Source: a virus
Direction: 5' to 3' (one strand)
Length of the DNA: 20,326 nt
IMG/VR virus record: IMGVR_UViG_3300017782_002169
Span: 1-20,326 of that record
Shown here in pieces: positions 1-18,654 of this stretch (positions within the stretch are counted from its first letter, which is position 1; the number at the start of each line of letters is the position of its first letter). The notes below the pieces were generated by a model that had not been told where the DNA came from, searched no databases, and saw only the letters and a list, made by a program, of their open reading frames with translations. A program made the translations under genes and the position numbers.

Positions 1-234
1 GATATTAGATGAACCTATTTGGTTTATATCTAAAGTCATGCTAATACCATCAAGGTCAAGAGCAGTCATAGTACCTGATACAGCATTAGTTCCACCTATA
101 AGGTTAGAGCTTCCAAGTTGTTCTAGGTCTATAGATGCAGTGTTACCACTTTGGTCTACATAAATTTCGTTATCCGCGTATGTTTGCAATGCACTCAGCA
201 TCACAATCAGGCTCATTAAGTTTAGTTTCTTCAT
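1..234 (-). CDS. Secreted curlin-repeat-like protein (5' part, runs off the window)
   Basis: Seventy-eight codons are visible, open to the left edge. The first 20 residues form a clear Sec signal peptide (MKKLNLMSLIVMLSALQTYA, cleavage likely after QTYA). The mature part begins DNEIYVDQSGNTASIDLEQL and goes on with GSSNLIGG. Near the edge comes MTLDINQIGSSN. The spacing Q.G....I.L.Q.G..N is that of curlin repeats in CsgA/CsgB. ATG 234 is preferred because the basic n-region MKKL and the hydrophobic core begin there; the upstream GGAAAT is a weak ribosome site. It overlaps the CsgG-like gene by 65 bases in another frame. It is the likely cargo of the CsgG/CsgF-like pore, or an amyloid-like or beta-solenoid surface protein. 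Confidence 0.8.
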   Translation of the reverse strand, partial: MKKLNLMSLIVMLSALQTYADNEIYVDQSGNTASIDLEQLGSSNLIGGTNAVSGTMTALDLDGISMTLDINQIGSSNI

Positions 235-1042
235 ATTTCCAGTACCCTTTATCGTAACCGATAATAATAAGTTCCAATACAGCACCTTCTATAGCTTTCA
301 TTAAGGCTATAGTGGTACTTTCGTTGCGTGAAACACCAAATTCCACTTCAACTAATTCAGTACCCATTTCTATGAATTTAAACACATCTTGTGACTGACC
401 ATAGCTAAGTATTGTCTTGCTAGATAACACTTCTACTAATATTTCACCAGTAGCTACAGACACCATTCTAAGGCTTACTGTGATAGTATCTTCACGATAC
501 TGAACACTTGTGCCTATTCCTAAATATCTAGCACCTGCACCACCTGTGATTAGATTACTATCATACGACACAACAGCACCTTCAAGCAAGACACCTGCAA
601 ATAACAAGGGCATGATAGTTTTTTTATCTTGTAATTCTTCTCTTGTACTTCTTATAATTTGTCTTTCTTTTGTTAAGTTATCAAGACCAACTCTTTCTAC
701 AACTCTAAAGAATTCACCATTACTTGCATGTTTTAATGCTCTTATTAAAAGGTTGCTTGGTGCTTGGGTTATAGCACTAGAAAACAAAGCAAATTCACTG
801 TTACTCTTTCGTTGTCCTGTTTGGTCTGTAAAGGCTGTAGGATATACAGCTACTACTGGTTTTGTTAAGGGTGGTTGTACGTTTAATAAATCTTTTGATT
901 GTAAAGAAAAAATACTTGGTTTATCTTTTCTTTCTTTTTCAAATCTTAATTGTTGTGTGTCTTGTATAACACTAGTAACGGAACAACTAGAAAGTAAAAG
1001 AACCAATAGGTAATGTGATCTCTGTGATATTGCCATCTGCAT
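170..1042 (-). CDS. csgG: CsgG-like outer-membrane curli secretion channel (lipoprotein)
   Basis: A 290-residue protein close to the length of E. coli CsgG (277 as precursor). The signal sequence has a lipobox LLSSC with lipidated Cys20. CsgG-family hallmarks follow in order: KPVVAVYPTAFTDQTGQ (61-77), FFRVVERVGLDNLTKERQII (111-130), EGAVVSYDSNLITGGAGARY (154-173), then LGIGTSVQY, VSVATGEIL (194-202), SSKTILSYG (207-215) and VFKFIEMG. CsgG forms a nonameric beta-barrel pore that exports unfolded curli subunits. The pore-lining loop (about 78-95) differs from E. coli at several positions, while Phe87 may match the constriction Phe. The gene overlaps csgF by 56 bases and the curlin-like gene by 65. 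ATG 1036 is an alternative start; neither has a clear ribosome site. Confidence 0.93.
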   Translation of the reverse strand: MQMAISQRSHYLLVLLLSSCSVTSVIQDTQQLRFEKERKDKPSIFSLQSKDLLNVQPPLTKPVVAVYPTAFTDQTGQRKSNSEFALFSSAITQAPSNLLIRALKHASNGEFFRVVERVGLDNLTKERQIIRSTREELQDKKTIMPLLFAGVLLEGAVVSYDSNLITGGAGARYLGIGTSVQYREDTITVSLRMVSVATGEILVEVLSSKTILSYGQSQDVFKFIEMGTELVEVEFGVSRNESTTIALMKAIEGAVLELIIIGYDKGYWKYEETKLNEPDCDAECIANIRG

Positions 1043-1529
1043 CCGTTATTTTAAGTGTTATAAATTGTCCATCAGATGTGTATTCTATAATATTACCTTC
1101 TAGTTCAATAGTACCTGAATCACTTGGGGTTTCACCAAAAAGGTTTTCTACTAATTGTCTTGATAGTTGTGCATAGATACGAGATTCCAAGTTACGCATG
1201 AATCTAGCTAGTGTAGTGTTTTCTTTATCCCTTTCTATTTGTTCTTGTAAGGCTTTGATTTCCTCTTTGATTGTCATTTTTCTATTAAACTCTTGGTTCT
1301 CAATAGTCAAATAATGTGAACTAGTATTGACACCACTAAATGATGGGGATTTAAACTTGTGAACTATTTGGTCTGCTGTTAGATGTTGTACAAAGATACC
1401 ACAGAATAAAATCACACCAATTAGCATAACTAATTTTATCAACCTATCTTTTTCATAAGCTTCTTTTCTTTGTAAAAGTTCAGCTTTACTAGGCCTACCT
1501 CTTTTTCTTTTAATCTTTTCTTTGGTCAT
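987..1529 (-). CDS. csgF: CsgF-like curli assembly/transport protein with basic N-terminal extension
   Basis: A 180-residue protein. ATG 1529 is chosen because AGGCGG lies six bases upstream; the longer reading begins with TTG at 1547. Residues 1-31 are strongly basic with an AT-hook-like KRKRGRPSKAE. A hydrophobic segment follows at about 32-50 and a possible cleavage after VQHLTA (residue 52). The rest tracks CsgF. HKFKSPSFSGVNTSSHYLTI aligns with the CsgF mature N-terminus (F.FRNPNFGG....A.LL in E. coli). A helix LARFMRNLESRIYAQLSRQL follows, then IIEYTSDGQFITLKITDADG, equivalent to the C-terminal strands. In curli biogenesis CsgF plugs into the CsgG pore and couples secretion to nucleation. 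The next gene is CsgG-like. Confidence 0.82.
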   Translation of the reverse strand: MTKEKIKRKRGRPSKAELLQRKEAYEKDRLIKLVMLIGVILFCGIFVQHLTADQIVHKFKSPSFSGVNTSSHYLTIENQEFNRKMTIKEEIKALQEQIERDKENTTLARFMRNLESRIYAQLSRQLVENLFGETPSDSGTIELEGNIIEYTSDGQFITLKITDADGNITEITLPIGSFTF

Positions 1530-1860
1530 CTCTATCCGCCTTTGCAATTTTACTGCTATCTATGAGTTGTGGTACGCCAAGAATAGTTTTAATTAAAGTG
1601 TCTTGTCTTATGATTTCATTGTCTAAACTACGCACCCTATCAATTAATGCTACTAGTATTCCATGTTGTGAGTCAAGTTTTGTTCCCAGTCTTTCTTCTA
1701 TTGAAGCAATCTGTGATTCTACTTTTTCATCAACATTATCAAGTTTAGTTTCCATGCCATCTACAATACGCATGATAAGTTTGTATATAAACCAACCAAG
1801 ACCAACAGAAGCGGCTATTGGAAACCCAACTTCCTGTATAACCTTAATTGCCATATCCAT
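1510..1860 (-). CDS. Small membrane protein with coiled coil (holin-like)
   Basis: A 116-residue protein with one N-terminal membrane segment at about 12-31 (GFPIAASVGLGWFIYKLIMR). A long charged helix with heptad-like spacing follows (about 33-92: METKLDNVDEKVESQIASIE and onward), ending in a hydrophilic tail ADRDDQRKD. This layout resembles single-span BhlA/UviB-type holin-like proteins and other small phage membrane proteins at the end of tail operons. No endolysin or spanin is visible in the window. The start lies 15 bases after the preceding stop with no clear Shine-Dalgarno sequence, suggesting reinitiation. ATG 1854, two codons on, is an alternative. The holin role is only an inference from topology and position. 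Confidence 0.65.
   Translation of the reverse strand: MDMAIKVIQEVGFPIAASVGLGWFIYKLIMRIVDGMETKLDNVDEKVESQIASIEERLGTKLDSQHGILVALIDRVRSLDNEIIRQDTLIKTILGVPQLIDSSKIAKADRDDQRKD
1536..1541 (-). promoter_or_regulatory. Shine-Dalgarno-like AGGCGG deciding the CsgF-like start
   Basis: AGGCGG on the minus strand lies six bases before ATG 1529. It supports this start over TTG 1547, for which the site would fall inside the coding region. Confidence 0.6.
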
Positions 1861-1875
1861 TGTTATTTAACTATA

Positions 1876-2118
1876 TTATTCCCAAATAGCAGTAGCGATC
1901 GTTTGTACTAAAGCATCTTCTCCTGATACATCATCACTACAGTAAAACATTTTTTGTTTATTTACTGAAACTGGTAAATCAGCGTCATCAGGGTCATCAA
2001 AGACTTCGTTATATAAAACTAAAATACTAGGTTTAGTTTCGTTTACTATTTCAGAACTTAAATCCACAGCAGGATTTACCCTTGCTTGTATCGTGTTCTT
2101 TGTTAAGGTTATTGCCAT
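1876..2118 (-). CDS. Small hypothetical protein
   Basis: An 80-residue protein that I do not recognise. It has no signal peptide or membrane segment. It starts MAITLTKNTIQARVNPAVDL, has an acidic middle (EVFDDPDDADLP, residues 38-49), a possible hydrophobic strand SILVLYN, and a C-terminal FYCSDDVSGEDALVQTIATA. A strong ribosome site, AAGGAG seven bases before the ATG and just after the previous stop, suggests it is well expressed. It sits between the fibre chaperone and the holin-like gene, so it could be a fibre accessory, a minor virion protein or part of the lysis/export block. There is no sequence basis to choose. Confidence 0.7.
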   Translation of the reverse strand: MAITLTKNTIQARVNPAVDLSSEIVNETKPSILVLYNEVFDDPDDADLPVSVNKQKMFYCSDDVSGEDALVQTIATAIWE

Positions 2119-2132: not shown

Positions 2133-2501
2133 TTAATTTGGTTCATTAGGGAATATAACATCATTAATAGATGTTGCATCACTATTACTTGCAGGTAAGT
2201 CTCTTAGTTCTTGTCTATATGTTGACCATTCTGTTTTTTTACTAGAAGACAAAGGACTATCAGGCATTTGCGTCCAATCTGATTGTGTAAGTAACGAATC
2301 TCTTTTAGACCTTAATACTTCTAATACATTATCAGTTCTTGTAACAGCTTCACCATCAATAATAATATGCTCATTAGATTGATAACCGCCTATAATAATT
2401 CCTTCGCCTTCTTGCAACCCCATTACATCTATAGGTGTATCAGTTGTAGTTGTATAAGAGATTTCTCCTGAATCTAAATTGTATATAGTAAAAGTGTTCA
2501 T
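2133..2501 (-). CDS. Tail fibre assembly chaperone-like (Phage_tail_APC)
   Basis: A 122-residue protein with the signature of the Phage_tail_APC group (PF16778) in its C-terminal half: LRSKRDSLLTQSDWTQMPDS (63-82), then a WSTYRQELRDLP helix (92-103), ending in a Pro/Asn-rich tail. The first 55 residues form a small beta domain (FTIYNLDSGEISYTTT, then EGIIIGGYQSNEHIIIDGEA). The group occurs immediately downstream of fibre or tip genes and is thought to help fibres fold or assemble. Here it starts in a one-base TAATG overlap with the giant tip gene, consistent with coupled, stoichiometric translation. Confidence 0.8.
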   Translation of the reverse strand: MNTFTIYNLDSGEISYTTTTDTPIDVMGLQEGEGIIIGGYQSNEHIIIDGEAVTRTDNVLEVLRSKRDSLLTQSDWTQMPDSPLSSSKKTEWSTYRQELRDLPASNSDATSINDVIFPNEPN

Positions 2502-5500
2502 TATCTTGTGTTGTCCATCATTACATTAAGTGACATTTGCGTATGGTTGTAACCACCTGAAAAATATACTCTCCAATAAACAGTTGACTGTGAAGTACTC
2601 AAAGTAGTTATTTGCCCTGTATATACATAAGTATATCCTCTATAAGTTCCTGCATTCCAAGATACATTCGTGTTTCCATTCGCATTAACCCAAGTTGAAC
2701 CGTTTAAAGAGTATTGAACTCTACCACCACTTACATCACCAAGTACTCCTGAAAAAATAGCAACATACCCTGCATTATCTCTAACTTGAGTGATTGTTAC
2801 ATTTACGAAGGAACTATTACTTCCTGTAAATGGATTTGTCCTTTGAACATATGATTGACCAGTTTTGGCTAATGGGAATTTAGTTCCTGCAGTTAGATGA
2901 CTAACGATGGTAGAACTTACATTATCAAAACTTTTTACATTTAAAAGATCAACATTAATTTCAGCACCAGTGATAGTGTCTGATGCTATCTCAGTAGCTG
3001 TTATAGTGTTAGCGGCTATTTTATCAGCTTCAATACTATCAGATTTTATTGTTATATCGCCCTGTTGAGTTATCTCTAATTCACCTGTGCTTAAATCAAC
3101 AACACCTAAAGTAGCACCTGTAATAATTCCATGCTGATGAGCAACAGAAGTAAGGAATGTGAGAGTATTATTTGCGGCATCAAAAGGAGAAATATCTCCA
3201 ACTGGTGAGCCTACAGTTGATTTAAAGTCTATATTTTTACTTGTGTACAATTCTCTTTGCATTGCACCAAGTTGTACCATCTCATCATCAGCTTCGTTTT
3301 GGCATACTAAGTGAAAAGGTGCAGTACCTATAAACTTAAATGGACCATCAGTGCTTAATGCTCCACCTGAACCTGAATCAGTACCCTCTGAAGAATACAA
3401 TGGAGCGGACTTAGTTGCGGCTCTATGGTCATAAGTATAAAGAACATCATTTTGACTATCTAAAACTTTAATAGTATTTGTTTTATAAGAAACTAATCTA
3501 AAGTTTGTTATATCTTCTTCATTGTAAATGTAATAATCAGATAGCGATTCTATAGGGACAGCAAATTCAGCGTCACCCCCTGCACCATCTGCTGTGCCAT
3601 AAGCAAAGATTCCATTTTTACCTGAATTGTCTCTATAGTAAGTTGCGTTTCCATTAGTTGCGGTTGTTATAGATGAGGTAACAGAGCTTTCTGTATATCC
3701 AAAACTAGCAGGTGAAAATGTAGAAGAACCTATTAACTCCATACCTGCAGGTGATAGTAAAGTATAGTCACCACCACCTTGTGGGATTGATTCAGCACAA
3801 ATTAATCCATCTGCTTTTACTATAAAATATTGAGTACCTGAAGATGTGCCACCACCATGCACATCTTCTTGAAATACAAATCCTGAACCTGCATTAATAG
3901 TTGTCGTATAAATAAAATCACCTGAAGAAGAACTAGAAGCATCAACTGGAGCAGTAGACTTTCTATAAAACTCAACAGTAACTTGTGCATATGGTGAATA
4001 GACATAAATATCTATTGGTTGATATCTATCAACATATAAACCTAAAACCCTACCTGAATAATTAGTATTCATTGTAGGTGCTGAAGGATTAGTTGCCATC
4101 ACAGATATTGGTTTATCTGCAGTGATCTCTGAAAAAGCTGAAAGGTCAGCCGCTAGTATTTGATAGACTGTTCCATCTGCTTGTGCATTAGGAATCTTAA
4201 TAACACCATCAACAAAAACATCAGTTCCATCAACATAAGGAACTATTAAATGTATTTGTCCTGAATGACCACCCACAATATATTTTGCACCTGCATGATG
4301 TCCTTTAGATACCATGTAATCTCTAGTATCTAAATATTGATGTGCTTCTGATAAACCATCTACGACATAGTTTTGATAGCTAGAGCCTGTACCCATAACC
4401 AAAGGACTAGCTACTATTTTTGTTATGCCATTAGTTGTTAAAGTACCAACTGCATTTATATTATTAGAATTCAAATCCAAGTTAGCATTTGTAATATCTA
4501 TGTCTTGTGTTCCTGAACCTGACTGTAGTGTCATTCTAGTGGTTTCACCTGCCGCAACACCATTATTAGACATTAATACTAAGTCACCTGAGGTATGTCT
4601 ATTAGTTACATAATGATGTCCACCTAATTCATAAGCAAAGTTTCTGTAATTAGCGTCTGTTCCACTACCCATGAAAGCTATGGGTGTTCCATTACCTACT
4701 AAATATATTGATGAAGCAAAATTTGCAACACCTGCTGAATCTAATGTTAAAGCAGGTGTGCCTTCTACATCTAAACGTATTGAAGACGCTTCAATTCTTA
4801 AATCTTTCCATGCACTACCATCCCAATCTCTTGACCTAATTCTTGCTTGTTCTTCTGAACCAGTATCTCTATAGTCAATTACTAATGCTGAATTTACACC
4901 TGATGGATTTGACCTAGTACCTGCATCTAAAACAAGCCTACCATCTAAATTTAACTCTGATACTGGACTTTGAACACCAATTCCAACATCTCCTGCATCA
5001 TTAAACACTACTGTAGATGTTGTTGCTCCTGAATTATAAAAACGTAAACTACCTGCACTATCTACACCAAGTTGCCAAGTTTCTGCTCCTGATGCTTCTT
5101 CAATTGCAATTGCATGGTCATTTGTACCTGACTTTACTATTAAGGGAAAGTTTGTTGTGGTTTCTATGTTGCCTATTTCAGCACTATTTGCAGTAACATC
5201 TCTTGTACTGTTTACAAAAGTATCATTATTAGCACCCATTTTTATGGTATTAATATATAAATTGTCCCACACTCTATTAGTTAAACCTAAATTTGAAATA
5301 GCAGTTACCTCAGGTCTCCATGCACCGTTTGCATTATTAGCTCCATCCCATCTAACTGCTTTTGCTTCACTTGAAGGATTTAATACACTAATGATTATTT
5401 GCCCTGAAGCATCCTGTGAGTTTCTTATAAATGCAGTAGGGTCTGTAAAATTTATGGTATCGGTGACACTAATACCTGTTGATGTGGTTTCTAAAACAGC

Positions 5501-8500
5501 ACTACCTGCATAATAAAGTTCTACTTTTCCTGTAGAGTCTGTTACCTTTATGGCACTTCTTGGAGTTGTATTTCTTTGTATTAATAAATCATCAGAAGAA
5601 CGGATTATAGAATTAGAACCATCATTTAATATTAGTAACTCACCTAAATCACCTGCTCTAATAATATTACCTAAAGCATCTAAATTTGATCTCAGTGTAA
5701 CAGCAGCAGTACCAGATCCTAAATACAACTTAGATTCTGAAAAGTCTCTGTATATAAAGTTTTTTGTTGTATCTGTATTATCTCTTACTATAAAATCTAC
5801 ATCATCGGCACGAATAGTGACACCGCCACCACCATGAATATATTTGCCTGTATCCATGTATAGACCATTGTCATTTAGTTGCATGATAGAATCAGTCTGT
5901 ACAGCAGTACCACTTGTAACGCTTGATTTAAGCTCAAAATACATAATTGCATTAGAACCACTATCTGTATTAACTTCTATACGAGCAGAGTTACCATCTT
6001 GTTCAGGTACACCACCTAAATGATTCCAAGTTACGTTAGCATTTCCATAACCATCATTAATAGTTAAAGCAACACCACCACTATTAGCACCTGATTGAAC
6101 ATGACTTGTAGCTGTAAGCTGTCCTGTTAAATTTAATACAGTGCTATCATAAGTAAGCCCTGATTCACCATTTAATGTATTTGTAACATCACCACCAGTT
6201 ATAATTCTGTTATTTGCATTGTTGTTAATAGTAATAGCATTCGCACCTGCACTTATACCATCTAGCTTAGTGCCATCTGTAGCTATGTCTCTACCATCAA
6301 CAGTACCTGTAACAGATATATTTCCCGAATCCTGAAATGTAACTGAAGCTGTAGTGCTTCCACTATTATAAAAACCTAAATCTCCATCAGCATCTACACC
6401 TAACTGCCAGTTTTCATTTGCACCTACAGGCTCATAAATAGTTATTGCATGAGAGTCTGAATCTGAACGTATAGCTAAAACGCCATCAATAGACGAAGGA
6501 ATATCTCCAATACTCAAACTTTCAGCACTAACACCTGCTATATTGGTAAGGTTTCTAGCACTTGTAATAACCTCCTGCGTTCCAATGCTATAAGATGTAG
6601 CAAAAGCATTAGCACTAGCATCAAATACTTTTGTTCCTTCTCCATCAACTAATCCAGTACCATCAGCAGAAGCACCAACACGAACTGAATCATGGTCAAC
6701 AAGTAAACCCATGCTAAATGAAATATTATTTCCTGCTGTTCCAATAGGTGCTGAATTTAGTGATATAGCACCATCAACACCATGACCTTGCATAGATATT
6801 TTACCAACACCATCACCTGTTACTGCATATTGACCACTTCCTGTTCCTGAATAACCAATAGAAATAGAATAGTTACCATTACCATCATTAACATTGTGTC
6901 TGATTGAATAATCTCCACCACTATCTTTAAAAGCTAAAACATTATCCCCTGTACCACCATCCAAACGAGCATCTAAACGAAGCTCTCCATCTATATTTAC
7001 AGTAGAACTAAAAGTAGAAGCACCACTACTTGAAATAGCACCACTATTAATAGTTCCTGCAAAAGTTACACCACCTGTTTGGTATAAAGTTATATCAGTT
7101 TCACCTTGTCTTCCTATTCTTAAGTCATCTCCCTCAACATCTATTCTGTAGAAATCATAAGTGGTATCGTTTGCGGCAGTTGTATATAACCTTAATTCAC
7201 CACCTTCGTTACCTGTAGCCGCACCATAGGCACTAATAGTTCCACTAACAGCATCATTTTCACCAACATCTAAAGCAGAACCCTTAACATAAACATTGCC
7301 TTGAAAAGTTGAGTTTTGTGTTCCATCTATTGTTAATGCATCTGAACTATCAGTTCTTAATTTAATACTAGCTACTTCATCAGTTTCAATAATAAGGTTT
7401 CCAGTACCTCTGTGATAAATTGCTGAACTTGTATTAGCACCACTATTGTTTCTTATAAGCCTAAGACCATAGTCTGTATAGGTGCTATCACCTACGAGAT
7501 CAATATAAGCGTAATGATTACTAGATGTGTTTGTACCTACGTTTATGAATGTGTCTGCTGTGCCATTATGATTGACATTTATTGTGCCTGTAGCAGTTAT
7601 ATTTGCTGTACTATTAACAGCTCCTGAAGAGATACTTCCAGTTACTTCAATTCCATCTGTAGTTGTATTGAGCTTCTCTGCTCCATAAAAGAAAAGTTGT
7701 GCCTGTCCAGTAGAACCATCTGCCCTAAAGTATGTAGTTACTCCCCCTGAACCATTATCACTTTTTATATAAATGTCTTTAGCAAGAAAATCATTTTGTA
7801 TAACTAAATCACAATTAGTGACATTTTGAATAATAGAATTAGTGCCATTATGATAAAGTCTTAAATCGTTAGAATCTCCTAGTGATATTCTGCTATTGTC
7901 ACTCCATTTTGTGTATAACGCACCTGAACCTGCCATACTCCCATCTAATCTGAAATATATAGCAGAGGCACCTGTGCCATCATCTGACCAAAATTTGATA
8001 TCGCTATCATCTGCAAAGTTCTTAATATCAATATCGCCTGTGTAATTTGATATGTTGGCTGAACTCCCAGTGTGTTGTAATCTTAAATCGTCATCTGAGC
8101 CTAATATCAATAAAGCACTATCAGGAAAATCTAAACCATGCGAGAAGTTAAACCTATCACTGGTTGTAGCCCAAGTTAAGGTCGCATCATTACCTGCACT
8201 TACAGCATCTTGTATAGTAATACCTGCACCATTTGCATTAGCTGAAGTATCACCAGTTCCATAATTAAGCGTTATGTTCTTATCTTTTACATCAAGATTT
8301 GCAGTATCTATTGTGGTAGTAGTACCCTGTACTTCCAAATTTCCTTGAATGACTACATTGTTAGTAAAGGTTCTTGCACCATCAATACTAGAAGCTAGTG
8401 CCAAAGTAAATGAAGCATCACCTGAAGTAAAGTTTGCACCACCAGTTAGACCACCACTAGAAGCAGTTGTTATTTGTACTCCTGTTATATCGCCTTCAGG

Positions 8501-11500
8501 TGGTACTGTAGAACCTGTGCCATTATCAACATAGAAACCATCACCACTAGGGTCTGTTACAGATATAACTCTAGGTGCTGTTGATGTTACATTATTAGAA
8601 ACAGCATTATAATTAGGTGTTCCAGTAGTTTGACCATTAACTGTATCAGTAGATGACACTGTAGCTTTAATTCTATGCGTTGTTCCTGAACTTGTCCCTG
8701 TTAAAGTTAGACCTGTATGAGATAATGTAGTTCTTCCATCACTATCAACACAACCAACATTTGTTGTTGGCGTACCTAAAGATGTTGTTGTTGAACCAAG
8801 ATATAAAGTTCCACCTTGACCTGATATAAACAATAATTGTACGTTACTATTTATTTTATATTCATCTGCATCAGGTGAGGTGTCTGGGTTTAGTCTATCG
8901 TTTACCCTTCTAAATTCGTCTGTAACAACTGTGTTATAAGAAGAACCACCATCACTTGAATGTTCTATCGTTAAAGTAAAGTTTGCAGGTACTTCTTTTT
9001 CTGCATTATCTATAGCATCATTAGAACTTGCTTCATCTGCAAAACCACCAAAATTTGAATCAATACTTACTGTTACATTTACATCTGTATTTGCTGTAAC
9101 TGTTATTTCTTCGTATTCACTATCGCTATCTGTGGTTGTTGATACAGTTGTAACTTTAGTATTAGAGCTACGCCCTATTTGTGATAAAGCTGAATCACTA
9201 AATCCAGTTTCAGAATCAAAATAAACTGTTCCATCTGTTAATTTTAAAACTAGGTTTCTTGCTATAGCCTTTCCATCTTTATCTACAGCAAAACTTGCGT
9301 TTGATGGCGATTCACTTCCTGACCAAAATCTATAATCACCAGTACCTGACATCTTAGCAATCTGACCACTACCTGCTACACCTGCTGTAAATGTTTTAGT
9401 TGTTTGTACTTCACCATCACCTAGAACTTTAAAAGGTGCATTAGCAAAAGTGCCATTACCTAAATAGATACCATTAGTATCTGCTGTAAATATATTAGTT
9501 CCTGAACCTGCTATAAATGTCCCATTAATACTAGCACCAGTTGCATCTAAAACACCTGCTGTATTAACAGTAAAAGCACCTGAACCTATATTAATTTGAC
9601 CTGCTGTAATACTTCCTAAATTAGCTGATAAAGAAGATAAGCTATTCACTATTAATTTATCAGCAGTAATAGAATTAGTTACAAATAGATCTCCCTCTAT
9701 TTTTGCAGGTAATCCACCTGCAGGATTCATATATAAAGATTGAACTTGTTTATCTGTTATAGCTTTTGTGTAAAATCTTACATCTGATAATTTTCCAATA
9801 AATACATCATTAGTATTAACAATAGAACTCTCTGTATTACAACCAAGCACAACTGGTCTTGAATTAGTTGTATAAGCAATATTAGTATCTGTAGCTCTTA
9901 ATACGCCATCAAGATATAGTTTGGCACTTGTAGTACCATTTACAACTAAAGCCAAGTGATGCCATTCGTTTACAGAAGCACCATTATAAGAAACATTTTC
10001 ACCATCTGTATATAATCTTACAGATTGATTTCCTGTATCATTTTGGTCTATCGCTAAAGACCAAAAATCTGAAGCATCTCTACCAATTATTCTTGCACCA
10101 GCTACTCCTGATTCAGTTGTTGATTTGAACCACAAAGCGACAGTATAGTCACCTGTGGTTGATTGCCATGTTGTAGCTTGTGCGTTGTTTAAAAGTGTTA
10201 TACCTGTATCCGCACCATTTACATAAGATTGACCATTTGGACTATCAGTAGCAAAGCTTCCATTACTACCAGTTATAACACCTGTTACATTACTAACAAC
10301 ATCAATAATATCAGCAGGGGTTGTATCGTTAGGGTCACTAAATCCATTTAAAGGGAAGTAGTGTAATAAGCCATCAACTGGGAAATCAGGATTTATGACA
10401 CTAGTGACTGTTAGATTATTACCACTTCCGTCTTGTAGTATTCCACCACCTAAAGTAAGAGTAAGGTTTTGTATATTTGCTTCTACTACATCAAGGGTCG
10501 TTGCTGTTATATTTCCATCAACACTTAAACTTGTACCATTCCAATAGACTTTGTCTTTAAGAGAAAAATTACCATTATCGTCAACATAAAATGCAGTATT
10601 ACTATTATTAACAGTTCCTGTGCCTACATATAATTTATCACTAGCTAAATTAATACCACCTATAGTTCCACTTTCTGCTTTTAGAACACCTGCTTCAGTT
10701 ACGCTAAAGGGTGCAGAACTGAATGTTGCATGACCTAGCTGTATACCAACACCTGTTTCTGCTTTAAATACGTTGTTGCCTGTACCTACAACAATATTGT
10801 TTGTTATCGTTGCACTGGTTGTTAATAGATTTAATGTGGTTATAAAGTCTGTATCAACCCTATCTGCTGATATGGTTTGTGCAATAATCTTTGTACCTGC
10901 AAGAGTACCATCTACAACCAAGTCACCAGTTGTGAAATTATTGATCTCTACAAAAGTTGAACCATTCCATTTATAAGCCTTTGATACTTTAGGAGTAACA
11001 CTGGTATTAACCATGATTAAAATATCATCTGTTAATGGTGTTCTGCCATATTCGGTATTAAATTGTGATGATGTTAAGGCTGTAGTTGTGTTGCCTTCCT
11101 TATGGAAATAACCTGAGAAATCAGGTAAATCAATATCACCTGCATCTACTAGCGTAAAGCTACCTGTTGTTGTGCTTGTAAAAGTAGAATGTGTGCCTGA
11201 ATGATTTATGGCTCTTACTGCAAAATGATAAGTAGTTCCTGCTGTCAATCCATCTTCTAAACCAAAAGTAAGCTTCTGTTTTTCGCTAGGCTCTGATGTA
11301 ATTGTTGAAACTAAATAAGTGTCATCTGTTGGTGTAAAGTTAGATGTATGTCTGTAAACCTTTACTGCTCTTAAATCACTATTACTTGGAGCATCCCATT
11401 CTAAACCTATGACAAGAGCCTTGCCTGATGTTGCAGAAAGGTTAGATGGTGCTGAAGGTGCTGAAGGTAATCCTGTATTTACACTTTGTTCGCCAGTGTT

Positions 11501-13555
11501 TGAACTAAATACATTATTACTAGAGAAGTGTCTAGCTACTACATAATAATTAGAGTTAGACATCAAATTAGGTATTACTGCCTTTGTCTTTCCTTTACCT
11601 ACTAAAATAGAACCAATATATGTTCCTGAAGATGTGCCATATAATATTTCTGTACCTTGTATTAAATCATCAGGGTTGTTTGTCCAACTTGCATCTATGT
11701 TTACTTTACTTGTAGTTGAATCTAATTGTAAATCTACTGTAAGAGATAAATTAGTTGGTGCTGTTACGCTAAAACTACCTGTAGGAACGCTAGAGCCTTC
11801 GTCTATGGGGCTTGTATAAGAAGAAGAAGCAAATGCATATACAGAAGAATCAATCTCTTTAATGTCAAGTCTAGTAGCCAACATTGGAACATCATTTTGC
11901 TCTATAACTTCTAGATTTGTGCTTAAAACTTCAAAGACTTTGTTTGTGTAACCTAATCTTTCATTGGTTAAGTAAACCCAATCAAAAGGTTGCAATTGCA
12001 TATAAGCGATATTACATAAGACTGATAATGCTACCTCCTGTCTGCTGTGTAATATTGCTGTTCTTTGTAACCTTTGTGCCATTGTTGTGTTGTCAGTAAA
12101 TGGCAACTGTATTTCTAAAGTTTTTCTATAATTAGCCTGTGATTCTCCTGTTGGCGTATCTTCACTTAAAAATGTATTACTGGTGTCAGGATTTACTGTA
12201 GTTTCTGTAGGTGAATCAGTTGCAACATAATTATTATTACCATCAACATAGACTGCTTTTACTGTATTAAAGGTTTCACCACTAGTCTGTTTAGTTGATA
12301 TAGAGATCGGTGCTAATAAATTATCATCTGTAATTGTCATTTCAGGTGTAACAGTAGCACCTGCAAACATAACAAACTTACCATTTATATAAGACATTTT
12401 ACCTGCACAAGAACTAAGCAACCCTTCAATAACACCTGCACCATCTGCAGTCATATTAGTAATTCCATTAGCTTTATATGAGACTTCATTAAACGTTAGT
12501 GTCACACCATCAGCGATAGTTACTGCTGAAGATAAGGTTACAACTAAACCTGTTCTTTTGATTACTGTTACAGTGCCTGTAATTCCTGTTCCTGTAACTG
12601 TTTGTCCTATATCTATTAGTGTATTAGTGACTGCTGTATCAATTGTTACTGTAGTAGAACTGCTTATAGCACCATTAACTGTAGCTGTTGTTATTGCACC
12701 TGCGGCAGTTTCACAAGTATTAGCGGCTGATGCAAATCCACCCAGTGCTGTAGTGTCATTGATCTCACTAGATGTAGCTTTTAAACCATATGTTGTATTG
12801 GTTAGATAATCTCTTACACATAGAGCAGGGTTAGTTCCAATATCCTTACCAGTGCTATCAGTGTATGCTGTTTCACCACTTCTAGGGTCATAAACCTTTT
12901 TACCTTTTATAACAAAAGATAAAGGTGGTATTCCACCACCAAAGGCTTCTGAATCAAAAACAAATTGAATTAGCATGTAAGCCAAGCCTGTGAACTTGTC
13001 ATTATTATCTAAAGATGTGTTACTGGTGACTGTTGAATCAGCACTTGTCTGTGAGCCATCTAAAAATTTATATCTTAGTAATTTACCACTACCAAAATTG
13101 TTTTCATTATCTGTATTAATAAATTTACTATTTGTGGCAACTTGAAAACCACCACTTGATGTTGTTGTAAGCTTTACATCATTGACCAATACTTCTTCCA
13201 AACTCTCTACTTCGTGTCCTGCCAGTACGACTATCATTGATAGCTTGTAGTTATCTGTTCCTGAAGTTTCTATATGGGTGATTGTTCCACCAACTCTAGC
13301 TTTACCATATATGATTTGTCTAGGTGATGTAGCTGTTCTTGTTGCTACCTTTGTACCAAAGTTTTCAGAAGTAGCATTCGTACCTTTTGACATCAGACCA
13401 CCAACTAAGGCACTTAATGCTGATGCAGTTGCTACTTGTAAAGCAGTCAATCCTGTAAGAGCTAATGTTGTTGTACTTAATAAAAATGCTGTACCTGTTA
13501 CTACTAAAAATGTTACAACAAATACTGTTACTGCCGCTTTGAGTGCTTTAGCCAT
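2501..13555 (-). CDS. Giant tail-tip / receptor-binding protein (J-like hub fused to fibre)
   Basis: A 3684-residue single frame. Residues 8-53 are hydrophobic, as in many J-like proteins. Residues 70-590 resemble the lambda J hub (RQIIYGKARVGG at 79-90; GGIPPLSFVIKGKKVYD at 207-223; LLSSCAGKMSYINGKFVMFAG near 380-399), interrupted by a small beta insert at about 284-356. Two FnIII-like domains lie at 597-697 and 700-800. A LamG-like lectin fold is at about 1058-1278, from LLHYFPLNG to GKLSDVRFYTKA. Residues 1660-3050 hold marine-fibre repeats (for example IQGNLEVQGTTTTIDTANLD at 1736-1755, DLRLYHNGTNSIIQN at 1897-1911, DVGIGVQSP at 2856-2864). The end (3051-3684) is probably receptor-facing, with a repeated IxADKIAANTIT stretch at 3507-3530. 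No C-terminal S74 chaperone is seen. GGAGA precedes the ATG by seven bases. Confidence 0.9.
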   Translation of the reverse strand: MAKALKAAVTVFVVTFLVVTGTAFLLSTTTLALTGLTALQVATASALSALVGGLMSKGTNATSENFGTKVATRTATSPRQIIYGKARVGGTITHIETSGTDNYKLSMIVVLAGHEVESLEEVLVNDVKLTTTSSGGFQVATNSKFINTDNENNFGSGKLLRYKFLDGSQTSADSTVTSNTSLDNNDKFTGLAYMLIQFVFDSEAFGGGIPPLSFVIKGKKVYDPRSGETAYTDSTGKDIGTNPALCVRDYLTNTTYGLKATSSEINDTTALGGFASAANTCETAAGAITTATVNGAISSSTTVTIDTAVTNTLIDIGQTVTGTGITGTVTVIKRTGLVVTLSSAVTIADGVTLTFNEVSYKANGITNMTADGAGVIEGLLSSCAGKMSYINGKFVMFAGATVTPEMTITDDNLLAPISISTKQTSGETFNTVKAVYVDGNNNYVATDSPTETTVNPDTSNTFLSEDTPTGESQANYRKTLEIQLPFTDNTTMAQRLQRTAILHSRQEVALSVLCNIAYMQLQPFDWVYLTNERLGYTNKVFEVLSTNLEVIEQNDVPMLATRLDIKEIDSSVYAFASSSYTSPIDEGSSVPTGSFSVTAPTNLSLTVDLQLDSTTSKVNIDASWTNNPDDLIQGTEILYGTSSGTYIGSILVGKGKTKAVIPNLMSNSNYYVVARHFSSNNVFSSNTGEQSVNTGLPSAPSAPSNLSATSGKALVIGLEWDAPSNSDLRAVKVYRHTSNFTPTDDTYLVSTITSEPSEKQKLTFGLEDGLTAGTTYHFAVRAINHSGTHSTFTSTTTGSFTLVDAGDIDLPDFSGYFHKEGNTTTALTSSQFNTEYGRTPLTDDILIMVNTSVTPKVSKAYKWNGSTFVEINNFTTGDLVVDGTLAGTKIIAQTISADRVDTDFITTLNLLTTSATITNNIVVGTGNNVFKAETGVGIQLGHATFSSAPFSVTEAGVLKAESGTIGGINLASDKLYVGTGTVNNSNTAFYVDDNGNFSLKDKVYWNGTSLSVDGNITATTLDVVEANIQNLTLTLGGGILQDGSGNNLTVTSVINPDFPVDGLLHYFPLNGFSDPNDTTPADIIDVVSNVTGVITGSNGSFATDSPNGQSYVNGADTGITLLNNAQATTWQSTTGDYTVALWFKSTTESGVAGARIIGRDASDFWSLAIDQNDTGNQSVRLYTDGENVSYNGASVNEWHHLALVVNGTTSAKLYLDGVLRATDTNIAYTTNSRPVVLGCNTESSIVNTNDVFIGKLSDVRFYTKAITDKQVQSLYMNPAGGLPAKIEGDLFVTNSITADKLIVNSLSSLSANLGSITAGQINIGSGAFTVNTAGVLDATGASINGTFIAGSGTNIFTADTNGIYLGNGTFANAPFKVLGDGEVQTTKTFTAGVAGSGQIAKMSGTGDYRFWSGSESPSNASFAVDKDGKAIARNLVLKLTDGTVYFDSETGFSDSALSQIGRSSNTKVTTVSTTTDSDSEYEEITVTANTDVNVTVSIDSNFGGFADEASSNDAIDNAEKEVPANFTLTIEHSSDGGSSYNTVVTDEFRRVNDRLNPDTSPDADEYKINSNVQLLFISGQGGTLYLGSTTTSLGTPTTNVGCVDSDGRTTLSHTGLTLTGTSSGTTHRIKATVSSTDTVNGQTTGTPNYNAVSNNVTSTAPRVISVTDPSGDGFYVDNGTGSTVPPEGDITGVQITTASSGGLTGGANFTSGDASFTLALASSIDGARTFTNNVVIQGNLEVQGTTTTIDTANLDVKDKNITLNYGTGDTSANANGAGITIQDAVSAGNDATLTWATTSDRFNFSHGLDFPDSALLILGSDDDLRLQHTGSSANISNYTGDIDIKNFADDSDIKFWSDDGTGASAIYFRLDGSMAGSGALYTKWSDNSRISLGDSNDLRLYHNGTNSIIQNVTNCDLVIQNDFLAKDIYIKSDNGSGGVTTYFRADGSTGQAQLFFYGAEKLNTTTDGIEVTGSISSGAVNSTANITATGTINVNHNGTADTFINVGTNTSSNHYAYIDLVGDSTYTDYGLRLIRNNSGANTSSAIYHRGTGNLIIETDEVASIKLRTDSSDALTIDGTQNSTFQGNVYVKGSALDVGENDAVSGTISAYGAATGNEGGELRLYTTAANDTTYDFYRIDVEGDDLRIGRQGETDITLYQTGGVTFAGTINSGAISSSGASTFSSTVNIDGELRLDARLDGGTGDNVLAFKDSGGDYSIRHNVNDGNGNYSISIGYSGTGSGQYAVTGDGVGKISMQGHGVDGAISLNSAPIGTAGNNISFSMGLLVDHDSVRVGASADGTGLVDGEGTKVFDASANAFATSYSIGTQEVITSARNLTNIAGVSAESLSIGDIPSSIDGVLAIRSDSDSHAITIYEPVGANENWQLGVDADGDLGFYNSGSTTASVTFQDSGNISVTGTVDGRDIATDGTKLDGISAGANAITINNNANNRIITGGDVTNTLNGESGLTYDSTVLNLTGQLTATSHVQSGANSGGVALTINDGYGNANVTWNHLGGVPEQDGNSARIEVNTDSGSNAIMYFELKSSVTSGTAVQTDSIMQLNDNGLYMDTGKYIHGGGGVTIRADDVDFIVRDNTDTTKNFIYRDFSESKLYLGSGTAAVTLRSNLDALGNIIRAGDLGELLILNDGSNSIIRSSDDLLIQRNTTPRSAIKVTDSTGKVELYYAGSAVLETTSTGISVTDTINFTDPTAFIRNSQDASGQIIISVLNPSSEAKAVRWDGANNANGAWRPEVTAISNLGLTNRVWDNLYINTIKMGANNDTFVNSTRDVTANSAEIGNIETTTNFPLIVKSGTNDHAIAIEEASGAETWQLGVDSAGSLRFYNSGATTSTVVFNDAGDVGIGVQSPVSELNLDGRLVLDAGTRSNPSGVNSALVIDYRDTGSEEQARIRSRDWDGSAWKDLRIEASSIRLDVEGTPALTLDSAGVANFASSIYLVGNGTPIAFMGSGTDANYRNFAYELGGHHYVTNRHTSGDLVLMSNNGVAAGETTRMTLQSGSGTQDIDITNANLDLNSNNINAVGTLTTNGITKIVASPLVMGTGSSYQNYVVDGLSEAHQYLDTRDYMVSKGHHAGAKYIVGGHSGQIHLIVPYVDGTDVFVDGVIKIPNAQADGTVYQILAADLSAFSEITADKPISVMATNPSAPTMNTNYSGRVLGLYVDRYQPIDIYVYSPYAQVTVEFYRKSTAPVDASSSSSGDFIYTTTINAGSGFVFQEDVHGGGTSSGTQYFIVKADGLICAESIPQGGGDYTLLSPAGMELIGSSTFSPASFGYTESSVTSSITTATNGNATYYRDNSGKNGIFAYGTADGAGGDAEFAVPIESLSDYYIYNEEDITNFRLVSYKTNTIKVLDSQNDVLYTYDHRAATKSAPLYSSEGTDSGSGGALSTDGPFKFIGTAPFHLVCQNEADDEMVQLGAMQRELYTSKNIDFKSTVGSPVGDISPFDAANNTLTFLTSVAHQHGIITGATLGVVDLSTGELEITQQGDITIKSDSIEADKIAANTITATEIASDTITGAEINVDLLNVKSFDNVSSTIVSHLTAGTKFPLAKTGQSYVQRTNPFTGSNSSFVNVTITQVRDNAGYVAIFSGVLGDVSGGRVQYSLNGSTWVNANGNTNVSWNAGTYRGYTYVYTGQITTLSTSQSTVYWRVYFSGGYNHTQMSLNVMMDNTR
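4991..6481 (-). repeat. Pair of diverged 52-53 residue repeats in the fibre region
   Basis: Residues 2359-2411 and 2804-2855 of the tip protein are copies of one unit; the DNA lies at 6323-6481 and 4991-5146. Both read HAI.I.E..GA..WQLGVD..G.L.FYNSG.TT..V.F.D.G. The second copy leads into VGIGVQSP. The arrangement suggests internal duplication of a fibre module. Confidence 0.8.
7712..8101 (-). repeat. Tandem fibre repeats of the 'LRLxHxGxxxxI' type
   Basis: Residues 1819-1873 and 1893-1948 of the tip protein align as diverged tandem copies. They share D.LRL.H.G....I.N, then D..IK.....G.....YFR.DGS. A third, looser copy is around residues 2639-2697 (LLILNDGSNSIIRSSDDLLI, then GKVELYYAGSAVLETTSTGI). 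These units are common in marine phage fibres and probably form beta-rich trimeric shaft segments. Confidence 0.75.
9722..10384 (-). other. LamG/concanavalin-like domain inside the giant tip protein
   Basis: This encodes residues 1058-1278 of the tip protein. The opening LLHYFPLNGFSDPNDTTPAD, the core DYTVALWFKST and FWSLAID, the NEWHHLALVVNGTTSAKLYL strand and the closing GKLSDVRFYTKAITDKQVQS follow the LamG-like lectin pattern. A carbohydrate-binding role is inferred from the fold. Confidence 0.85.
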
Positions 13556-13967
13556 TAGACACTCTCCATACAGATATTATGTTTACATTCTGTTTAGCTT
13601 CAACCATGTCATCTGAAGGTGTTAAAACTTTAAAACCATCTGAAATACCAACTAATTCTGATTCTTCTTTATAAACCACTAAATCACCTTTTTGCATAAA
13701 TGCTTTGTCTATTTTTTGTAAACCTTTTGCTTTACAAGCCTTTTCAATACTTTTAGAAAGAGTTTTACCATATTCTTTTATTGATCTCATAGCTTCTTCT
13801 TCGTTTTCCCATTTAAGTTTTTCAGGTATTAAATCCTCACCTGTCATAGCTTTAATTACAGCATTAGCAAATTTGCAACAATCCCAAGAACCCCATTTAA
13901 AAGGCACAAACCTGTGCTTGGTTATAAATAAGTCAAATTCTATATTCCAGTCTGTTTTCTTAATCAT
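13548..13967 (-). CDS. NlpC/P60-like (DUF6950-like) tail tip assembly protein
   Basis: A 139-residue protein in the position of the tail peptidase between hub and tip genes. Residues 20-35 (FVPFKWGSWDCCKFAN) match the DUF6950/NlpC-like pattern 'fxWGxxDCcxfaad' around the usual nucleophilic Cys (Cys30, Cys31). The C-terminal part has QKGDLVVYKEESELVGISDG and ends in an SVWRV strand. No His follows the cysteines, so the Cys-His pair of active NlpC/P60 enzymes is not visible. The protein may be structural or only weakly enzymatic. It overlaps the hub stop by one base and the giant tip gene by eight bases. Confidence 0.7.
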   Translation of the reverse strand: MIKKTDWNIEFDLFITKHRFVPFKWGSWDCCKFANAVIKAMTGEDLIPEKLKWENEEEAMRSIKEYGKTLSKSIEKACKAKGLQKIDKAFMQKGDLVVYKEESELVGISDGFKVLTPSDDMVEAKQNVNIISVWRVSNG

Positions 13968-15061
13968 TATTTTTGATGAACTGCATTCCTATCAATTCCA
14001 CTATCTTTTTTATTATGAACTAATATATCATTAGCAAAATAGTTATTGTGTTTATATATTTCAATTAAATTATAAGTCGGTATGTCTGTTTTATTATCTA
14101 TAACTTCTATGCTTGTTATTTCTAAAGAATCTGCATTTTTATCAAATAATCTATCTCCAACTTCCAATTTATCTACATCAAGCCCATGCAGTTCTTTTGT
14201 TGCTGATGGGTTTATACTTACCCAACCTTTTTCAATGCAATACAAAGGGTGACACTGCGTTGTATGTAGTGAATTATCTTTATAGTTGATGATATAAGTT
14301 TGTTTATTAGTTGTTTTGTGTAATTTTTGTACGCTTGATTTAACTAATAAATTATTGTCTATGTCATAAGACATAATTTCATCAAGCATTTTTATATCTT
14401 CAATATTTTTAGTTGTACCATCGCCCATAAGAATTTGTGTACCTGCAACAAAACAACCACCTCCACCACCACCAGTGTTAGATGATGATCTCCCCCATAT
14501 AATCTCTTTATCTTGTAAAGACTGTACTCTGTTAAAACAATTATCAGTAGAATCTATATACTGTTGTGATTCTTTTGTATATCTAAGATTTGATGGTCTT
14601 TCTAAATCTATAAGTCTATTTTCAGCATCAACAGTAATAGTAGAACCATTAGGGTCATCATTTATTACCATAGATTGCATACGACCTTTAAACAAAGTCA
14701 TAGTACCCACAACAGTGTCTGTACCACCTGAAAGATATCCTAAATAAACAGTTATAAATCTGTTTTGATAGTTTTCTGTAAGTGCTAAGTCAAGAACAGT
14801 TGCATCCATACCTGCTAAAGAAACAGACAAACCACTGGACTTTAATTCTAAGGTATCTTCTATGTTTGATATAGACAATAAAGTGCCAACACCAAGATAT
14901 GTTGCACCATCAATCGTGAGATCATAATCACCTGACCAAAGTCTAATTGTTTCTGTGTCAAATTCAGCTTTGACTGCTAAGAATAATACTTGATGGTCTG
15001 CTTCAAGGTAACTTTGTATTGATGTATCAATCCCACCCCTGTTTGGCACAAAATGAGACAT
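13967..15061 (-). CDS. Tail hub protein (DUF2163-like) with C-terminal Hint domain
   Basis: A 364-residue two-part protein. Residues 1-190 look like a DUF2163-type tail hub as in GTA clusters: YLEADHQVLFLAVKAEFD, then TIRLWSGDYDLTIDGATYLG, a strand-rich core with TLFKGRMQSM, and an end NCFNRVQSLQDKEIIWG. A serine and glycine linker with six consecutive glycines (197-202) follows. Next comes a Hint domain from Cys203 to Asn350, and finally 14 residues ending VHQK. The Hint part shows CFVAGTQILMGDGTTKNIED, a TxxH block B (Thr268, His271) and a terminal LVHN. The stop of the distal tail gene abuts this ATG, with GAGG nine bases upstream. The hub part sits below the tail tube and binds the tip protein. 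The role of the Hint part is inferred self-processing. Confidence 0.8.
   Translation of the reverse strand: MSHFVPNRGGIDTSIQSYLEADHQVLFLAVKAEFDTETIRLWSGDYDLTIDGATYLGVGTLLSISNIEDTLELKSSGLSVSLAGMDATVLDLALTENYQNRFITVYLGYLSGGTDTVVGTMTLFKGRMQSMVINDDPNGSTITVDAENRLIDLERPSNLRYTKESQQYIDSTDNCFNRVQSLQDKEIIWGRSSSNTGGGGGGCFVAGTQILMGDGTTKNIEDIKMLDEIMSYDIDNNLLVKSSVQKLHKTTNKQTYIINYKDNSLHTTQCHPLYCIEKGWVSINPSATKELHGLDVDKLEVGDRLFDKNADSLEITSIEVIDNKTDIPTYNLIEIYKHNNYFANDILVHNKKDSGIDRNAVHQK
14012..14455 (-). other. Hint / bacterial intein-like domain within the tail hub gene
   Basis: This stretch encodes 148 residues (203-350 of the hub protein). It has the catalytic Cys first, splicing block A (FVAGTQILMGDG), block B (HTTQCHPLYC with Thr268 and His271), an F-like block (IPTYNLIEIYKHNNYFAND) and the C-terminal His349-Asn350. 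There is no homing endonuclease insertion and no LAGLIDADG motif. The residue after Asn is Lys, not Cys, Ser or Thr. That is unlike a canonical intein and like Hint or bacterial intein-like domains that cleave or ligate proteins without standard splicing. Confidence 0.85.
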
Positions 15062-15970
15062 TTAAACTACCTCAATACATGAAAAGGAGATACCATAGTT
15101 AGAAATATTATCTGCATCCCAGTCAACATCTTTTGTTGTTAATCTGAATAAACCTTTAGCAGGATTATTAAACAATTTAACATTATTAACATAACCAGTT
15201 CTTAACTTAGGTTCTATTCTTACAGAATATTCATTTTTAGCTGAACCACCTTCATCTGTTTCAACTGCATCGCTTGTAACCATTACATATTGTGTTGGAA
15301 CATAGTTTGATGATGTTTCTGTTGAAGATGTGCCTATTCCTAAATAATCACCTTTTAATATAGTTCCTGTTCCACTATTTAATTGTGCTTTTATGTTTAT
15401 TCCTTTTGCACCTTTTGCATTACCATTTATGTTACAACCTGTTACATCTGCTTCTGTAACTAAGGAGTCATAGTCTACTGGGTCAACTACAACTGTATAA
15501 TCATTAGTTTTAGTAACTATCTTATGTGTGCCATTGTTTGCAGGATTAGTTGCTCCTGATACAACAAAAAAATCACCTTCGTTAGCGGCACTGAAAGGTG
15601 TAGTGTTAGATGGTGCTGTTATTGTGTTGGTTGATGAAGCAAAGTCTAGTTCTATATTGTTAATCCCAACTCTTTTTTGGAATAAAAATGTAGTTCCGTT
15701 ATAAGTACCTTGTTGATTCAAAGCATCAGGGTCTGCAAATTTAAAATGATTGACTGGTCCATTAAGTTCTAAAAGAAAGGACTGCCAATTCTTAGCAACA
15801 TCTCTACGCATAGGTGGAAGTGTCACAGTAGCTTCCCAGTAAACACCATCATATTCTTGTGTTCTTACTTTTCCAGTATATGGCGAAGCTACACTACCTA
15901 CTGCTCTTTTAAGTGTGAAATTACTCCTAATAAAATTAGGGGTTGTTGGCATTGTTATTATTTTAGCCAC
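15062..15970 (-). CDS. Distal tail protein-like
   Basis: A 302-residue protein occupying the distal-tail slot directly after the tape measure. The N-terminal region (MPTTPNFIRSNFTLKRAVG, then a GKVRTQEYDGVYWEATVTLP strand pair and PPMRRDVAKNWQSFLLELNG) resembles the opening domain of distal tail proteins that ring the end of the tail tube. The middle (about 100-200) is a beta-rich, low-complexity domain, and the C-terminal 60 residues return to a strand-rich fold. The start is GTG at 15970, supported by AAGGAG eight bases upstream; the first ATG is six codons later and less well placed. The name is based on position and the N-terminal pattern. Confidence 0.75.
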   Translation of the reverse strand: MAKIITMPTTPNFIRSNFTLKRAVGSVASPYTGKVRTQEYDGVYWEATVTLPPMRRDVAKNWQSFLLELNGPVNHFKFADPDALNQQGTYNGTTFLFQKRVGINNIELDFASSTNTITAPSNTTPFSAANEGDFFVVSGATNPANNGTHKIVTKTNDYTVVVDPVDYDSLVTEADVTGCNINGNAKGAKGINIKAQLNSGTGTILKGDYLGIGTSSTETSSNYVPTQYVMVTSDAVETDEGGSAKNEYSVRIEPKLRTGYVNNVKLFNNPAKGLFRLTTKDVDWDADNISNYGISFSCIEVV

Positions 15971-17882: not shown

Positions 17883-18102
17883 CAGGATATAACTCCATTA
17901 ATTCGCTAAGACGATCACTGGTCATAGGCTTATCTTTATCTTCTGAACCACCATTAAATTCTGTAAATCCATCTATAGCCATATAGACTTCTTTAGGGCT
18001 TGATTGCCAAAAATCTTTAGGAGACATACCCATCATGCCAACACAAATAGAAAAGTAGCGTTTGATGGGTAGGGAATCACTAGTTAATCCCCCTGTTCTT
18101 GC
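17875..18102 (-). CDS. Tail assembly chaperone, TAC_12 / DUF2376-like (frameshift extension, T-type)
   Basis: After a -1 shift at GGGAAAG the frame stays open for 75 more residues, with no stop until a TAA that overlaps the tape-measure start. The extension reads through [20 protein letters not shown] and [20 protein letters not shown]. This strongly resembles the PF09550 (DUF2376/TAC_12) pattern of a helix, then 'lgLsPxxFWxltPxEl', found next to TAC_11 in gene transfer agents. The conserved part begins upstream of the first in-frame ATG (18036), which argues for frameshift expression rather than a separate start. The predicted fused product is 186 residues. It would act as the GT-like partner that binds the tape measure during tail assembly. 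Confidence 0.78.
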
Positions 18103-18434
18103 TTTCCCTCGTCTGCTTCTTCCTCTGAATCATCAGTTAGAGATTGTGCAATCAAGTTAGCAACTGCGGCTGTTGATTTAACTATTCCTGCATCTTGTAC
18201 TATTTTAACTACATCTTTTCTTTGAAAATCATTACCACCACCTCTCAGAGCAGGTAATAGTACATGGATTACCTCTGACATTCTTATATCAGCTTCACCC
18301 ATTTTTGTAGCAAGTTTTATAATTCCACAGTCACATGCATCTTCTATTTGAATAATAGCATCTATGGTTAATCTAGCTTTATAGTCCTTACCTGCTAAGT
18401 TAAGTGTGGTTTCACCCTTTAGTTTGTTTGTCAT
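18084..18434 (-). CDS. Tail assembly chaperone, TAC_11 / GTA gp10-like (G-type product)
   Basis: A 116-residue protein similar to the GTA gp10/TAC_11 family (PF11836). It has a [20 protein letters not shown] opening, a helix beginning [10 protein letters not shown], then an [18 protein letters not shown] segment and an acidic C-terminus (residues 101-116). I chose ATG at 18434 because AAGGAG lies ten bases upstream; a longer reading from TTG at 18476 lacks such support. These chaperones bind the tape measure and recruit tail-tube subunits. Codons 110-111 (GGA AAG) lie in the heptamer GGGAAAG, so a fraction of ribosomes should shift to the -1 frame and make a longer fusion with the downstream chaperone domain. 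Confidence 0.82.
18102..18108 (-). promoter_or_regulatory. Programmed -1 ribosomal frameshift site (slippery heptamer GGGAAAG)
   Basis: On the coding strand the sequence is G GGA AAG in the phase of the upstream chaperone (GGA begins 327 bases after the ATG). This is the same heptamer in the same phase as the lambda G/GT frameshift site. Both tRNAs can re-pair with GGG AAA after slipping. It lies 18 bases before the zero-frame TAA, and the -1 frame then carries the TAC_12-like domain. I did not establish a downstream pseudoknot. Confidence 0.8.
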
Positions 18435-18654
18435 CTGACTTTTTCTCCTTTTTCTTAGGTTTACTTGCTTCTGCAAGGTTTATTCTTAATAAATCATCTC
18501 TAGTATCTAATCTTGATGCTAAAACCTTTCTTTCTTTACCATCAACATTAATAGTTTCACCAACCTCAATGACGTTTTTTATAAGTAATTCGCCTTTATA
18601 TAAAGCTCCTCTTATAAACTCATCACCTACTTGTACTTTTACTTCTTTAAGCAT
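18412..18654 (-). CDS. Small Lys-rich protein of unknown function in tail cluster
   Basis: An 80-residue protein that I do not recognise. Residues 1-58 look like a small beta domain ([18 protein letters not shown], then [15 protein letters not shown]), and residues 64-80 form a charged, Lys-rich and probably disordered tail. It lies between the major tail protein and the first tail assembly chaperone, overlapping the former by TAATG and the latter by 23 bases. That position suggests a tail-assembly accessory or a minor tail component. No membrane segment or signal peptide is visible. The start is fixed by the TAATG coupling, since no strong Shine-Dalgarno sequence is present. Confidence 0.7.
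18445..18450 (-). promoter_or_regulatory. Shine-Dalgarno AAGGAG fixing the chaperone start
   Basis: AAGGAG on the minus strand lies ten bases before ATG 18434, inside the 3' end of the small Lys-rich gene. It favours this ATG over the upstream in-frame TTG at 18476. Confidence 0.7.

Follow-up and report, generated by a model that had tools for sequence, protein, structure and literature searches.

A curli-type secretion module in a siphovirus-type phage fragment whose relatives carry it next to lysis genes

Bacterial curli systems, such as csgBAC/csgDEFG of E. coli and the alphaproteobacterial csgF-csgG loci, share CsgG, CsgF and a curlin-type repeat protein with a module known from marine phages. 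Phage curli were noted by Zaragoza-Solas 2020 (PMC7029224) and later by Wittmers et al. 2022 (PMC9599517) and Buchholz 2022 (PMC9004378). Wittmers et al. described CsgF-CsgG-CsgA/B-FecR-cyclase in podo- and myovirus-type pelagiphages, always with one or two 'histidine kinase' genes before csgF, which were left out of their trees as short or diverged; neither holin nor spanin is mentioned there (PMC9599517), and a spanin is mentioned once, in general terms, in Buchholz 2022 (PMC9004378). What phage curli do is a published puzzle with several ideas. The locus analyzed here is, as judged from its sequence, a further case of published phage curli, in this instance in a siphovirus-type phage. The initial annotation of this DNA had singled out the full trio of CsgF, CsgG and cargo as the point to pursue; the trio, together with FecR and an adenylate cyclase, is already in Wittmers 2022 (PMC9599517). 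What is added is the run of the module into lysis genes, a different reading of the gene before csgF, and a phage CsgG clade and module distinct from bacterial curli.

The window comprises an entire 20,326-bp IMG/VR fragment (G000; G+C 34.9%), in which almost all coding lies on the minus strand. Siphovirus-type head-tail and tail genes occupy positions 13548..20268 (minus strand) and match profiles for head completion (PF05521), tail completion (PF11367), tail tube (PF06199), a GTA-gp10 chaperone (PF11836) and tape measure (PF20155); further tail genes of distal tail, hub and NlpC/P60 type lie in this region, which also matches phrog_1302, phrog_2048 and PF22262. The last large structural gene ahead of the module encodes a tail fibre-type protein of 3,684 amino acids (2501..13555, minus strand), the N-terminal 600 residues of which match tail proteins of relatives. 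This one gene takes up over half of the fragment; proteins at the same place in relatives have about 950–1,260 residues. It is followed on the minus strand by a tail assembly chaperone (2133..2501; PF16778, E = 7e-19) and an 80-residue protein (1876..2118) that lies between the tail genes and the module, is kept in several relatives and gave no significant match in family profile searches. The tail hub protein (13967–15061, minus strand) carries in its Gly-rich tail a C-terminal Hint/intein-type domain (CFVAGTQI...ILVHN) that is absent from the hubs of five relatives; it is bacterial-intein-like by look and might process the hub. Resemblance of the tape measure to that of Pelagibacter phage HTVC202P (47% over 192 residues) is only a hint of the host. 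An integrase profile, sought as a sign of a temperate life style, was found in none of 12 contigs searched, which are possibly incomplete, and a search for carriage of the module on plasmids gave no plasmid match.

Four module genes lie in the window, all on the minus strand and each overlapping the next: a small membrane protein gene (1510..1860), csgF (987..1529), csgG (170..1042) and the 5′ part of a curlin-like gene (1..234). The gene coordinates thus bear out the proposal of one overlapping cluster after the tail genes. The CsgG-like assignment was confirmed by profile search (PF03783, E = 1e-47; 162.6 bits versus a cut-off of 20.8), with a match that spans profile positions 6–208 of 210, and a profile search against solved structures returned E. 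coli CsgG (3x2r/4uv3) at 2e-66. The protein has a lipobox, LLSSC, whose cysteine C20 is invariant in 15 sequences, and its place in the export machinery, as a predicted outer-membrane lipoprotein pore, is well supported. The CsgF assignment held equally (PF10614, E = 4.3e-17; 63.0 bits versus a cut-off of 25.8), on the strand and in the place proposed; a search of the single sequence against the PDB gave no significant match. CsgF has 180 residues, starts at an ATG at 1529 and has a long basic N-terminus (KRKRGRPSKAELL) followed by a signal segment, with a predicted mature start of DQIVHKFKSPSFSG. In E. coli the N-terminal segment of CsgF binds CsgG and enters the CsgG barrel. This CsgG-binding segment is kept in the phage proteins as in bacterial curli, with F59, P62, F64 and G66 (F-x-x-P-x-F-x-G) invariant in 17 sequences. 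The unusual 30-residue basic N-terminus (1440–1529, minus strand) contains an AT-hook-like KRGRPSKAEL before the signal segment; such an N-terminus recurs in distant relatives (L017, L027, L111, L135) and is absent elsewhere. A general DNA-binding function for the motif was considered and rejected, as many relatives are without it.

The curlin-like gene is cut by the contig end, as the record ends at base 1 of the window. Its visible part (ATG at 234; 78 codons) encodes a signal peptide, MKKLNLMSLIVMLSALQTYA, followed by DNEIYVDQSG.... Extension of the contig to the left, as the initial annotation had proposed, was possible with a related contig, L002 (99.57% identity over a 4,209-bp overlap), in which the gene is complete (244 residues) and is followed by genes for a FecR-domain protein and a cyclase. 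The window ORF scores below the PF07012 cut-off of 20.7 (E = 0.0072, 16.7 bits), and the complete L002 protein does not reach it either. Four orthologues that align with the L002 protein do: L083 (26.0 bits), L163 (23.2), L162 (22.5) and L111 (21.3). The mature L002 protein has seven regularly placed G-x-x-N turns, at 21, 54, 77, 105, 131, 153 and 182, and one further match at 27; this total of 8 compares with a shuffled mean of 2.6 and was reached in 3 of 2,000 shuffles. For the longer motif hydrophobic-x-hydrophobic-x-G-x-[SNTDG]-N, not one of 2,000 shuffles reached the observed count. Most repeats are without the Q of the curlin consensus.

An AlphaFold2 model of the L002 cargo (30-sequence alignment) is a solenoid built of beta strands alone (pLDDT 87.3, pTM 0.84), and its strands end at the G-x-x-N turns. 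Comparison of the model with the PDB by Foldseek gave no match at E <= 0.001; in Foldseek/VIA-align, beta-helices such as SufB/SufD lead and no curlin is among the matches listed, which excludes nothing, and the cargo profile returned from the sequences of solved structures no curlin, only weak unrelated chains. Because the orthologues pass the PF07012 cut-off, taken with the repeat turns and the solenoid model, we assign the L002 cargo to the curlin family as a divergent member and a predicted fibre subunit. The curlin-like cargo of the initial annotation therefore stands through its orthologues, turns and modeled fold, and not through the window ORF or the L002 protein, both of which are sub-threshold. 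The gene looks to be under purifying selection (median dN/dS 0.14, over non-independent pairs). A second curlin-repeat protein of phage HTVC008M (L082:8444-9769, annotated as hypothetical) carries a PA14 domain (E = 3e-6), possibly a sugar-binding head on the fibre.

The gene that precedes and overlaps csgF encodes 116 residues (phrog_18771, E = 2e-15), with one N-terminal hydrophobic stretch and then a coiled coil. Across relatives, one or two proteins of 85–116 residues of this family precede csgF. A histidine kinase requires a phosphorylated His and an ATPase domain. Profile searches found no kinase profile in the proteins before csgF, which have no conserved His; histidine is entirely absent from 11 of 21 sequences. 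Holin profiles gave weak matches only (phrog_4898, 7e-5; phrog_1296, 0.001). From its position and number, this protein is probably the published 'HK' of Wittmers 2022. On sequence features the gene before csgF is a one-helix protein and not a histidine kinase, in which respect the locus departs from the published description; this counts against the published name, not against membership in the module. Among 50,697 phage records, phrog_18771 matches only HTVC008M and Melnitz, both curli carriers, which indicates that the family belongs with the module.

Beyond the cargo, L002 encodes an exported FecR-domain protein (L002:4640-5734; PF04773, E = 5e-10), a 127-residue protein and the first part of a CHASE2 adenylate cyclase, which is whole in L004 (PF05226, 1e-23; PF00211, 2e-20). 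Past its signal-like N-terminus, the FecR protein has no segment of strong hydrophobicity, which makes a role as a membrane-bound sigma regulator unlikely. Its structure prediction is poor (pLDDT 63, pTM 0.35), and no claim about its fold is made. The FecR protein and the curlins have in common a C-terminal motif of I-x-I-x-Q type (I358, I360 and Q362 are invariant in FecR), perhaps an export or assembly signal.

The composition of the module was examined in 80 IMG/VR loci retrieved with CsgG as the sole query, many of them close relatives, so that the following counts are not independent; loci long enough to tell were taken as testable. csgF is present in 79 of the 80, the curlin gene in 79/79, FecR in 77/77 and the cyclase in 70/70 testable loci, and the small membrane protein is present, and precedes csgF, in 67/67. 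The CsgE profile (PF10627) is absent from 12 related phage records with a positive E. coli control, in agreement with the initial annotation; with CsgE missing, gating of the pore is left unexplained. The gene content of the window with L002 and L004, that of the 80 loci and the absence of CsgE in relatives place the locus in the phage type VIII (T8SS) module of Wittmers 2022. The pelagiphage versions in HTVC008M and Melnitz likewise consist of the small protein or proteins, csgF, csgG, curlin, FecR and cyclase and lack CsgE; their CsgG proteins are 41–49% identical to that of the window and belong with it to one phage clade. The window differs in its siphovirus-type backbone, the published ones being podo- and myovirus-type, and in that its close relatives run into Rz/Rz1 spanins and a lysozyme.

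The latter feature is one of the three additions. Where at least 900 bases extend beyond the cyclase, as the count needs, lysis genes follow it in 53 of 53 testable CsgG-fetched loci, 34 with Rz/Rz1 and 19 with a lysozyme but no detected Rz. The spanins are not within the window itself; in relatives, the genes next after the cyclase encode an Rz-type i-spanin (phrog_739, 7e-13), with an N-terminal membrane anchor and a coiled coil, and, in an overlapping frame, an Rz1-type lipoprotein (phrog_812, 5e-15; lipobox IANC), beyond which lie a nuclease and then a lysozyme (PF00959, 6e-47). In podovirus-type relatives with no detected Rz, the genes after the cyclase encode a 159-residue holin-like protein (PF11351, below cut-off) and lysozyme, preceded in some by a small one-helix protein. 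Each of 10 long contigs has a single lysozyme site. The T4-like HTVC008M and Melnitz are exceptions, in which the module does not adjoin lysis genes. The Rz with its overlapping Rz1-type lipoprotein gene and the downstream phage lysozyme recall a lambda-type lysis cassette (holin, lysozyme, Rz/Rz1), which in the phage version is preceded or interrupted by a six-gene export module. The three genes first proposed are thus all present, but the cluster is, on gene order, at least six genes long (small membrane protein, csgF, csgG, curlin, FecR and cyclase), with lysis genes next in relatives.

A curli-less siphovirus-type relative was sought as an empty site; siphovirus-type loci fetched by tail protein and reaching far enough beyond the fibre gene have the module in 8 of 8 cases, and the loci that have Rz/Rz1 but no curli come from a podovirus-type lineage. 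A membrane protein of 115–132 residues (phrog_10198) lies ahead of the small proteins in several loci and directly after Rz1 in curli-less podovirus-type phages.

The CsgG tree separates all phage sequences, as a single group with 100/99 support, from 28 bacterial CsgG. Within that group the siphovirus-, podovirus- and T4-type carriers are intermixed, which fits the transfer from one phage lineage to another that Wittmers et al. proposed (PMC9599517). Unlike bacterial curli, the phage unit lacks CsgE and adds the small membrane protein, FecR and the CHASE2 cyclase; among 80 genome loci, the 76 that are bacterial curli loci carry none of these three. The other four group with the phage CsgG; two of these were examined and contain genes of phage type (terminase, T4-type clamp loader).

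The DNA itself shows the genes, the fixed order in which they lie and their export signals, the assignment of two of them to CsgG and CsgF, the repeat and predicted solenoid character of the cargo and, in relatives, the run into spanins and/or lysozyme. These features make it somewhat probable, in our judgment, that this is a phage-type curli (type VIII) secretion-and-display module of the late operon, with curlin fibre export timed with lysis. The module lies between tail genes and lysis genes, a gene order from which we infer that it would be transcribed late, with the lysis genes. The curlin subunit would be exported by Sec and then secreted by CsgG/CsgF, and would polymerize on the dying cell, so that fibres surround cell and debris as holin, lysozyme and spanins open the cell. 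In the step that we hold least firmly, the likeliest benefit would be that neighboring host cells or progeny are held together in dilute seawater, and the next likeliest would be shielding from other phages. In Melnitz, the one cultured case examined, infected cells did not clump as judged by cytograms and TEM (PMC9004378), which argues against strong aggregation in the Melnitz host at least, and the neighboring lysis genes may reflect no more than a shared place in the late operon. A stronger version, which we advance only tentatively, would make curlin export a dedicated part of lysis: a mobile, phage-assembled module fired with holin, lysozyme and spanins that casts an amyloid net round the debris of each burst, across unrelated marine phage backbones.

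Somewhat more doubtful is the notion that the CsgG/CsgF pore is itself part of lysis, through outer-membrane permeabilization or lysis timing, with curlin as a plug or relic. CsgG works in the outer membrane, whereas holins work in the inner membrane; many of these phages already encode spanins for disrupting the outer membrane, and the curlin gene is present in every testable locus and looks to be under purifying selection. The adjacency to spanins or lysozyme in all 53 testable loci argues for such a role, as does the proposal, made on other grounds, that CsgG/CsgF of Melnitz act as a pinholin or gated pore (PMC9004378). We give the same low credence to a curlin coat that is expressed well before lysis and shields the infected cell from other phages. 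Such superinfection exclusion, proposed by Wittmers 2022 (PMC9599517), is consistent with conservation of the module across several lineages of phages with possibly shared hosts, but a position in the late lysis operon would offer protection only near the end of infection. An open CsgG pore for uptake of nutrients or cofactors during infection, as proposed earlier (PMC7029224, PMC9599517), accords with the lack of a CsgE gate in 12 records but leaves the constant CsgF, the secreted curlin and the placement with lysis genes unexplained, and is very improbable. Incorporation of the curlin protein into the virion or tail, as the initial annotation had suggested and the position directly after the tail genes might imply, found no support and is the least credible reading, since the cargo signal peptide and the lipoprotein/Sec-type signals of CsgG and CsgF route these proteins out of the cytoplasm, where virions assemble, and phages whose tails differ carry the same module.

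For fibre export timed with lysis, the position next to lysis genes in both siphovirus- and podovirus-type phages narrows the published ideas and makes the timing and the cargo export of phage curli directly testable. Should the fibres indeed form at lysis, sticky aggregates would arise from viral bursts in the open ocean and affect phage encounter and carbon export.

Phage contigs that carry the module are also binned in MAGs of Sphingobacteriales and Pelagibacter (L163, L162), and curli read from such MAGs would mislead. OR851715.1, a 1,499-bp record named Salmonella phage with a CsgG match of 42%, may be host DNA mislabeled as phage.
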